Assembly (NCBI GenBank): GCA_945897475.1
Contig: CAMDFL010000005.1
Location: 1 to 52,920, forward strand
DNA from: Bordetella parapertussis
GTDB taxonomy: Bacteria > Pseudomonadota > Gammaproteobacteria > Burkholderiales > SG8-39
Length of the DNA stretch: 52,920 nucleotides
Direction of reading: 5' to 3'
Part shown: piece after piece, positions 6,466-41,098 of the stretch
Layout of the letters: every line of letters begins with the position of its first letter
How positions within the stretch are numbered: the first letter of the stretch is position 1
The notes under the pieces: generated by a model
The model's input: only the letters and a program-made list of their open reading frames with translations
The model's database searches: none
What the model was told of the DNA's origin: nothing
Position numbers and translations under genes: made by a program

Positions 6466-7615
<1,150 letters not shown>

Positions 7616-7616
<1 letters not shown>

Positions 7617-7698
7617 ACGGCTCTAATACTCACGATTAGATCGCTCTGATACTTATAAGACCGCTCTGATACTTGTGAGACCGCTCTGATACTTATTA
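7616..7698 (+). repeat. 20-23-bp degenerate tandem repeat x4 between mreB and mreC
   Basis: gacggctctaatactcacgatta / gatcgctctgatacttataa / gaccgctctgatacttgtga / gaccgctctgatacttatta; begins at the last base of the mreB stop. Confidence 0.92.
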
Positions 7699-38163: not shown

Positions 38164-38930
38164 GCGGTGGCCGGCGCGCCGAGATAGGCTTCGATCACGC
38201 GCGCGTCGCTTTGTATTGCGGTGGGCGGCCCCTCGGCGATTTTCTCGCCGTGGTCGAGCACCAGGATTCGATCGCACAGGCTCATCATCAGGCGCATGTC
38301 GTGTTCAATCAGCAACAGGGTGATGCCGCGCGCGCGGATCTGGCGCAACAGTCCGCTCAAACTTTGCGTCTCCGAGGCGTTCATGCCGGCGGCGGGTTCG
38401 TCCAGGGCGAGCAGGCGCGGCTCGGTCGCCATCGCTCTTGCGATTTCCAGGCGGCGTTGGTCGCCGTAGGCCAGATTGCCGGCGGCATCATCGGCGCGCT
38501 CGTCTAGGCTGACGAATTCCAATAATTCGTGAGCGCGTGCCTCTGTATCGGTCTCCTCGCGTCGCGTGGCCGCGTCGCGAAGGATTGCTCCTACGACACT
38601 TGCCCGGGTGCGCGCGTGGCGGCCGATCATCACATTCTCCAGCGCTGATAGATTGGCGAACAGGCGGCTGTTTTGAAACGTACGGGCGATGCCGCGGTGG
38701 ACGATGTCGTTGGGTTTCAGGCCGGCAAGCTGCGCGCCCTCGAATAGCAAGGAGCCGGAATCCGGCGTATAGATTCCGGTGAGAACATTGAACAAGGTGG
38801 TTTTGCCGGCTCCATTGGGACCGATTAAGCCATAGATTTCACCTGGCGCGATCGAGAATCCTACGTCGTTCAGCGCCTGAATACCGCCAAAGGATTTGCC
38901 CAGGCCAGCACAGGCGAGCAGCGCGCTCAT
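38160..38930 (-). CDS. livG: branched-chain amino acid ABC transporter ATPase LivG
   Basis: 'LGKSFGGIQALNDVGFSIAPGEIYGLIGPNGAGKTTLFNVLTGIYTPDSG', 'GIARTFQN'. Confidence 0.96.
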   Translation of the reverse strand: MSALLACAGLGKSFGGIQALNDVGFSIAPGEIYGLIGPNGAGKTTLFNVLTGIYTPDSGSLLFEGAQLAGLKPNDIVHRGIARTFQNSRLFANLSALENVMIGRHARTRASVVGAILRDAATRREETDTEARAHELLEFVSLDERADDAAGNLAYGDQRRLEIARAMATEPRLLALDEPAAGMNASETQSLSGLLRQIRARGITLLLIEHDMRLMMSLCDRILVLDHGEKIAEGPPTAIQSDARVIEAYLGAPATA

Positions 38931-40066
38931 GAGCCATCCTCGCCATGTCCGGCCTGAGCTGGTTTTTTTACTGGCGGTTTTGTCGCCGCCCGGTTCCTGA
39001 CCCTCGGGGGCCATAGCCCGCCAGGACGGAACGTCATCACCAGTACAAGCGCGAAACCGAAGATCAGCATGCGAATGACTTCGGGTTCCACCAGCATGCG
39101 GCCAAACAAATACTCCTGCAGCGGCTGCACGCTATGCCGAAGGATCTCCGGCAGAAACGACAGCAGCAGCGCGCCAACAATCACGCCCCAGATATTGCCC
39201 ATGCCGCCCAGCACTACCATGGCAAGCACCATCACCGATTCCACCAGCACGAAGCTCTCGGGGCTGATGAATCCCTGCATGGCCGAGAACATGCCGCCCG
39301 CCACGCCGGCGAAGGATGCGCCCATGGCAAATGCGAGTAACTTGATGCGCGTTGTGTCTATGCCCATGGCGCGTGCCGCGATTTCATCCTCGCGCACCGC
39401 CTCCCAGGCGCGGCCGATGCGCGAATTCTGCAGTCGAAAATTGATGAAAATCACCACCACGAGCATCAGGAGCAGCAGATAGTAGTACTTGATGGGTCCG
39501 CTGAAGGCCATGCCTAGATAGGTATCGGTGTGTGCGAAATTTAAATCGCCGATTGCGATCGGGTCGATGCGGTTGATGCCGCGCGGACCGTTGGTGATGT
39601 TGACGGGCGAGCCAAGGTTGTTGAGAAAAATTCGCACGATTTCGCCAAATCCGAGCGTGACGATTGCCAGATAATCGCCCCGCAGTTTCAAGGTGGGCGC
39701 GCCCAGCAGCACGCCAAACAATGCGGCCACCAGCGCCCCCAGGGGCAGGATCGCCCAGAAAGGCCAATGGATGCCAAAGTGCGGCGAGGCGAGCAAGGCG
39801 TAGACGTAGGCGCCCACCGCGTAGAACGCGATGTAACCCAGATCGAGCAGCCCGGCGAAACCCACTACGATATTGAGCCCGAGGGAAAGCAGAATAAAAA
39901 GAATCGCAAGGTTTGTAATACGAACCCAGGCGGTGCCGGCGCTGGCGAGTGCAAAGGGCAGTGCCAGCAATGCGAGCACCACCAGAGCAACGCCGAGCGA
40001 CTTATTGCGCCACGCCGGCAGTGGCGTTTTTCCCTGTGCCGCTTGCGTTTGCATGGACTCGCTCAC
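38927..40066 (-). CDS. livM: branched-chain amino acid ABC transporter permease LivM
   Basis: 'GLNIVVGFAGLLDLGYIAFYAVGAYVYALL', 'FGEIVRIFLNNLGSPVNITNGPRGI'; GTG 40066 or ATG 40054. Confidence 0.95.
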   Translation of the reverse strand: MSESMQTQAAQGKTPLPAWRNKSLGVALVVLALLALPFALASAGTAWVRITNLAILFILLSLGLNIVVGFAGLLDLGYIAFYAVGAYVYALLASPHFGIHWPFWAILPLGALVAALFGVLLGAPTLKLRGDYLAIVTLGFGEIVRIFLNNLGSPVNITNGPRGINRIDPIAIGDLNFAHTDTYLGMAFSGPIKYYYLLLLMLVVVIFINFRLQNSRIGRAWEAVREDEIAARAMGIDTTRIKLLAFAMGASFAGVAGGMFSAMQGFISPESFVLVESVMVLAMVVLGGMGNIWGVIVGALLLSFLPEILRHSVQPLQEYLFGRMLVEPEVIRMLIFGFALVLVMTFRPGGLWPPRVRNRAATKPPVKKPAQAGHGEDGS

Positions 40067-40230
40067 GCCCTGCCTCCCACGCGTTCACCGAGTAGTCCTG
40101 AGGGGCGAAACACCAATATCACGCCCTGCCTCCCACGCGTTCACCGAGTAGTCCCAAGGGGCGAAACACCAATATCACGCCCTGTCTCCCACGCGTTCAC
40201 CGAGTAGTCCCGAAGGACGAAACACCAATA
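40063..40230 (-). repeat. 3 x 56-bp tandem repeat at the livH/livM junction
   Basis: Copies 40063-40118, 40119-40174, 40175-40230; unit tcacgccctgcctcccacgcgttcaccgagtagtcctgaggggcgaaacaccaata with a few substitutions; copy 3 is the 3' end of livH. Confidence 0.97.
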
Positions 40231-41098
40231 CCAGAATTAGCACCAGAAACGCGAATACATCCTGGTAGTTGGAGCCGAACACATTGTTGGTGAAATCGCC
40301 TATATATCCCGCGCCCAGCGCCTCCACCAGGCCAAGCAACGCCCCCCCCAACATGGCCCCTGGAATATTGCCAATGCCGCCCAATACTGCGGCGCAGAAT
40401 GCCTTGAGGCCCAGGGCCGAACCCATGGTGTATTGCGCAATGCCGTAATAGCTACCGACCATGACGCCGGCCACCGCCGCAAGACCCGCGCCGATAATGA
40501 AGGTCACGGCAATGACACGATTAGCATCCACGCCCAGCAAGGCCGCCATCTGCGGATTCTGCGAGGTGGCGCGCATCGCCGTTCCCAGACGCGTGCGATA
40601 CACCAGCCAGGCCAGACCGCCCATCATGACAATTGAGATGCCGATTATGCCGATTTGAATATTGGTGATCGCTGCGCCTCCCAGTGCATAGGATTCGGAC
40701 TGGACCACCTGGGGGAACGCCAGCGGATTGCGGCTCCAGACCAGGAGCGCCAGGTGCTGCAAGATGATCGAGACACCGATTGCGCTGATCAAGGGTGCAA
40801 GGCGTGGCGCACCTCGCAGAGGCCGATACGCCAGGCGCTCCATCGTATAACCCAGTATTGCGCACACCAGCATTGCGCAAAGCGTGGCCAACAGCACCGC
40901 CAACAGCGCCGGCACGCCCAATGGCGTCAGCATGCCGATCAGGGTGAAGGCCACCATCGCGCCTATCATCACCAGTTCGCCGTGGGCGAAGTTGATCAAT
41001 TGAATAATGCCGTAGACCATGGTGTAGCCTAGCGCCACAACGGCATACACCGCGCCCAGCGTGATGCCATTGATCAGTTGCTGGACGAAAATGTCCAT
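40175..41098 (-). CDS. livH: branched-chain amino acid ABC transporter permease LivH
   Basis: 'QQLINGITLGAVYAVVALGYTMVYGIIQLINFAHGELVMIGAM'. Confidence 0.96.
   Translation of the reverse strand: MDIFVQQLINGITLGAVYAVVALGYTMVYGIIQLINFAHGELVMIGAMVAFTLIGMLTPLGVPALLAVLLATLCAMLVCAILGYTMERLAYRPLRGAPRLAPLISAIGVSIILQHLALLVWSRNPLAFPQVVQSESYALGGAAITNIQIGIIGISIVMMGGLAWLVYRTRLGTAMRATSQNPQMAALLGVDANRVIAVTFIIGAGLAAVAGVMVGSYYGIAQYTMGSALGLKAFCAAVLGGIGNIPGAMLGGALLGLVEALGAGYIGDFTNNVFGSNYQDVFAFLVLILVLVFRPSGLLGERVGDRA

Follow-up and report, generated by a model that had tools for sequence, protein, structure and literature searches.

The closest described counterparts of the locus studied here are the MIRUs of mycobacteria, which insert at start codons and carry an open reading frame coupled at -4 (PMC12548453). 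Between senX3 and regX3, 1 to 7 copies of a 77-bp unit, mostly accompanied by a 53-bp unit, are found across the M. tuberculosis complex (PMC2453075). In the literature, we found no direct precedent for tandem duplication combined with translational coupling, MIRUs being the nearest case. It is still debated whether terminating ribosomes scan for a new start or are obliged to restart within a few bases of the stop. In E. coli reporters, 80-100% of reinitiation is lost at a spacing of 38 nt; for reinitiation to occur, 15 nt from the 3' end of the upstream gene suffice (PMC10666635).

We analysed a window of 52,920 nt (contig CAMDFL010000005.1, positions 1 to 52,920), where a tandem array lies between a livH-type and a livM-type permease gene. 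Tandem Repeats Finder places it at 40063-40230, with period 56, 3.0 copies, 94% matches and a score of 301, which ranks it among the strongest arrays in the first-sampled 1.95 Mb of its own genome. The three 56-bp tandem copies reported by the initial annotation are confirmed and lie in exact register, and the coordinates of the two 19-codon mini-ORFs that it described as chained through GTGA overlaps are confirmed. The features of the junction are the following.

40175..41098, minus strand: livH-type permease, the upstream gene (307 aa, ending GERVGDRA; PF02653, E 2e-45; 91% identical to its ortholog in G002)
40175..40230, minus strand: copy 1 of the 56-bp unit, the genuine 3' end of livH
40185..40190, minus strand: GGGAGA, ancestral-type site of mini-ORF 1, in copy 1, constrained by a conserved LivH Asp/Glu codon
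40119..40178, minus strand: mini-ORF 1, 19 codons (VILVFRPLGLLGERVGGRA, then stop), starting within the GTGA of the livH stop
40119..40174, minus strand: copy 2 of the 56-bp unit (4 differences from copy 1, 2 from copy 3)
40129..40134, minus strand: GGGAGG, site of mini-ORF 2, in copy 2
40063..40122, minus strand: mini-ORF 2, 19 codons (VILVFRPSGLLGERVGGRA, then stop), its TGA overlapping the livM GTG
40063..40118, minus strand: copy 3 of the 56-bp unit, ending at the livM start
40073..40078, minus strand: GGGAGG, ribosome-binding-like site of livM, in copy 3, 6 nt before the GTG
38927..40066, minus strand: livM-type permease, the downstream gene (379 aa from GTG 40066; PF02653, E 5e-53)
ATG 40054, minus strand: alternative start of livM

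Both permeases belong to the BPD_transp_2 family of Pfam; their neighbours are a periplasmic binding protein upstream and LivG/LivF-type ATPases downstream of the pair. Copy 1 encodes the C-terminal residues of LivH, LVFRPSGLLGERVGDRA. On the minus strand, the livH TGA sits in a first GTGA (40175-40178), from which 19 codons lead to the TGA of a second one (40119-40122) and 19 more to the third (40063-40066), whose GTG at 40066 opens livM. The stop/start overlap of 4 or 1 nt that characterizes termination-reinitiation pairs is thus present three times, as GTGA. The frame of livM is closed 18 nt 5' of GTG 40066. The edges of the array fall where the stop codon ends, and homology does not extend past them; in the 4.6-Mb assembly the 56-bp array occupies a single locus. 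Five sites vary between the three copies, by transitions only: copies 2 and 3 have three differences from copy 1 in common, and two sites separate them from each other. The array folds no better than its shuffles (z -0.23), and a search for a promoter inside it found none.

We compared 90 usable livH-livM junctions from relatives. A 4-nt overlap is present in 47 (27 ATGA, 16 GTGA and 4 TTGA), and the closest relative, G002, has a plain GTGA. None of the 90 carries a duplicated livH tail: each has one copy, the best further match reaching 30 of 56 identities. The array was seen in one genome only. With plain overlaps in many of the relatives and no tail copy among their junctions, the comparison identifies it as a tandem duplication of the last 56 bp of livH, derived in its own lineage. 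Some relatives tolerate livH-livM spacers longer than 80 nt that hold no repeat relay, which counts against a need for bridging; in L010 and L063, the spacer carries an inverted-repeat insert, CCGTCATTCCCGCGCAAGCGGGAATCC...GGAATGACG.

Because the duplicated segment spans the stop/start overlap, a unit of any length leaves the stop of the upstream gene at the first overlap and the start of the downstream gene at the last one. Reading from the GTG in the first overlap follows the LivH frame through the copied tail solely at a period of 2 mod 3, so that a relay arises with a chance of one in three. The intactness of the flanking genes is therefore automatic: the statement that duplication leaves LivH and LivM intact is true, but makes a weak argument. 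The same holds for the remark that substitutions between copies keep the mini-ORFs open, which is accurate and carries little information, since none of the 60 possible transitions per mini-ORF introduces a premature stop, and the start or stop codon is lost through only 4 of them.

We propose that a local tandem duplication arose at a coupled junction and was kept since its phase preserves ribosome delivery to livM; we give this reading a probability of roughly 60%. Ribosomes ending LivH would restart at the overlapping GTG (56 being 2 mod 3), translate the copied LivH tail over 19 codons, terminate, start again on the second copy and then once more at livM. The relay would have arisen incidentally, through duplication in a genome rich in tandem repeats, and have been retained because coupling bridges an otherwise 108-nt gap. 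As reinitiation collapses at 38 nt in the reporters, such a gap would uncouple livM unless the mini-ORFs bridge it; as 15 nt of upstream gene are enough, 19 codons should be long enough to do so. The geometry, the ancestry and the recurrence of such chains are observed; from them we infer that the mini-ORFs are translated, that livM depends on them and that their phase is under selection. The relay put forward by the initial annotation is thus supported in its anatomy and plausible in its mechanism, given the ancestral GTGA overlap in G002, the unbroken chain, and the recurrence of chains at other junctions of the same genome and at livH-livM of another species.

Bridging may be only partly needed for livM. 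Copies 2 and 3 have GGC in place of a GAC codon (A-to-G, A46G), which converts GGGAGA to GGGAGG; the predicted anti-SD duplex amounts to -10.2 kcal/mol in copy 3 versus -7.3 in copy 1. The corresponding position of LivH holds an acidic residue (Asp or Glu) in 90 of 91 relatives' junctions. As the copied tail would no longer code for LivH, the codon would be free to change from GAC to GGC, yielding GGAGG. The copy-3 site is stronger than those of 69 out of 70 relatives' TGA junctions, the remaining one being equally strong. A46G is the most strengthening single transition of the 56 possible, and three random transitions would reach it with P of about 0.04; the evidence for a gain of ribosome-binding site by this change is suggestive only. 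With the site freed from LivH coding by the duplication, livM may recruit ribosomes itself. With the acquired GGAGG, it probably also gets ribosomes directly and might even dispense with coupling. In the independent livH-livM array of L036, one copy also has a strong site, GAGGAGG (-12.2).

Similar relays occur elsewhere in the genome. We scanned 2.28 Mb, about half of the 4.6-Mb, 296-contig draft assembly, for NTGA repeated in register, taking plain ORFs as gene calls and checking the flanking genes by Pfam. The scanned half contains about 10 further end-to-end relays between genes of known families, listed below with mini-ORF peptides written up to their stop.

queA-tgt: period 23; MNFNLINL and MNFNLIDL before Tgt MNFNLMHEDG
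arnT-like to SMR-like gene: period 20; MSSVSNL and MSSLSNP
GT9-GT1: period 20; MKQQGET and MKQMDER, then MKQVIAH
gspG to gspH-like gene: period 20; the N-terminal methylation motif is the sole Pfam match of the gspH-like product
tctC-tctB: period 26
dioxygenase to creatininase: period 14
GH3 to uracil-DNA glycosylase: period 20; MIALNRQ three times
amine oxidase-like gene to dctQ: period 20; MRTLLAL twice before MRTLLALSRA
acyl-CoA dehydrogenase to methyladenine glycosylase: period 14
purH-purD: period 20; five mini-ORFs of MKxLxSx type before PurD MKLLVIG

The repeat-built chains have periods of 2 mod 3. Their units come from the head of the downstream gene in most relays and from the upstream tail at livH-livM. 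In relatives of the same genus, the genes overlap by a plain 4 nt at queA-tgt and, by coordinates, at arnT-SMR and GT9-GT1; on this comparison, four relays (livH-livM, 56; queA-tgt, 23; arnT-SMR, 20; GT9-GT1, 20) derive from 4-nt overlaps. Such descent is not universal, since purH and purD are separated in relatives by non-overlapping gaps of 22 and 42 nt. No ribosome-binding site of its own is visible at tgt, so bridging looks needed at queA-tgt, and several relays have no such site ahead of the downstream gene. At livH-livM of a relative species, an unrelated and independent 32-bp relay (L036:3921-4052) comprises four mini-ORFs. Its last copy resembles the LivH tail (REDQLGDRA).

There are counter-examples to the 2 mod 3 pattern, L230 with period 91 and L214 with period 21. 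Non-chain controls at NTGA stops have periods of 16, 34, 28 and 52, and the downstream start is out of register. In L230 (6490-6600), the head of the downstream gene is present as a spaced 91-bp direct repeat that encloses a hairpin, at a former ATGA junction, where the phase breaks coupling. A 76-bp duplication of a gene tail before a TctC-type gene (L161:15067-15215) is a like event without coupling.

Where an array extends in register between the upstream NTGA stop and the downstream start, as classified by hand, its period is 2 mod 3 in 8 of 10 cases (P 0.003 against one third and 0.018 against the genome's own codirected intergenic rate), versus 4 of 13 for arrays that duplicate the stop without this layout (Fisher P 0.036). 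Sense relays are commoner than antisense ones in codirected spacers (15:5 discordant, P 0.04). Array-filled spacers contain 12 chains of at least two hops, where 5.5 are expected with shuffled units (P 0.01); for chains of any length, all 736 spacers yield 124 versus 85.5 expected, single chance chains being frequent. The phase and strand statistics (P about 0.003-0.04) are suggestive, small in sample and mostly chosen post hoc; unrelated causes also make period 20 common in this genome. A general excess of 2 mod 3 was considered as evidence of coupling and rejected: it is mild (58:41:38 among codirected intergenic arrays), and convergent and divergent spacers lean alike. It is conceivable, though doubtful, that relay arrays are recurrent in some bacteria, with tail or head duplications at coupled junctions surviving mainly at 2 mod 3, repeat length recording selection on reinitiation and copy number gradually loosening the coupling.

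The alternative of a neutral duplication supposes that livM is translated from its own GGAGG, that the mini-ORFs are unneeded and that their phase is luck. Tandem arrays are indeed frequent in this genome (G000): 54 with a period of at least 30 in 1.95 Mb, or 28 per Mb, versus about 10 per Mb in relatives' livH loci and none in the 147 kb sampled from G002. About 0.4 such arrays would be expected to cover one of 109 overlaps by chance. The strength of the copy-3 site against 69 of 70 junctions, the uninformative openness of the mini-ORFs and the one-third chance of the phase point in the same direction. However, chained relays recur at other junctions, several of them with no ribosome-binding site ahead of the downstream gene, and the phase excess (8 of 10) speaks against luck; we find neutrality rather unlikely, though far from negligible. 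As for other repeats in this genome, a dispersed unit of about 20 bp (GACCGCTCTGATACTTATTA-like) forms tandem arrays, several right after gene stops (for example at window positions 7609-7696), with 48 matches in 28 of 100 own-genome stretches; L032-L111 and the samples from two species of the same genus gave none. A contig start (L166:1-1057) holds a long in-frame array with nested 42/210/294-bp periods.

The initial annotation had also suggested a stoichiometry rheostat, in which the number of copies would determine the LivH:LivM ratio and change through slippage. The geometry permits stepwise change, and the 77-bp senX3-regX3 repeat, with its 1 to 7 copies, is analogous (PMC2453075). Yet the array is found in one genome only and its copies differ at five sites, which speaks against recent slippage; copy-number tuning is unsupported and seems to us improbable. 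An artefact of assembly, which a draft in 296 contigs might invite, is very improbable in view of the distinct substitutions in each copy and of a comparable array in an independent species. Insertion of a mobile, interspersed element of MIRU type at the start codon would agree with the architecture and the -4 spacing described for MIRUs (PMC12548453). It is hardly credible, being contradicted by a unit that is the livH tail itself, at a single locus in the assembly; the other relays, moreover, have unrelated units, mostly of local origin.

Local duplication at a coupled junction, our preferred reading, sets the relays beside three known systems. By their description, MIRUs share with them short tandem units between two genes, each ORF being -4 coupled to the next. 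The ORF of the livH-livM unit overlaps the flanking start and stop codons at -4, as in MIRUs, and by our arithmetic the MIRU unit lengths of 77 and 53 (PMC2453075) are both 2 mod 3. Contrary to MIRUs, which are dispersed over many loci and apparently mobile, the livH-livM unit has a single match in its own genome, a local copy of the upstream tail. Reinitiation pairs overlapping by 4 nt (PMC6728339, PMC10666635) are like the ancestral livH-livM, queA-tgt, arnT-SMR and GT9-GT1 junctions, but the relays insert two or more extra mini-cistrons between the genes. Synthetic bicistronic design (PMC10367133) likewise uses a mini-ORF with an embedded ribosome-binding site to deliver ribosomes onward, whereas the relays are of natural origin, arranged in tandem and fed by a complete upstream gene. 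Arrays that lengthen coupled junctions by fixed steps at a fixed phase constitute natural experiments on ribosome hand-over and scanning; if the phase bias proved true over many genomes, repeat length alone would become a readout of selection on translational coupling. Altogether, these are MIRU-like relays, but locally born and many in one genome, which points to local duplication, not a mobile element, as a route to the MIRU-like architecture.
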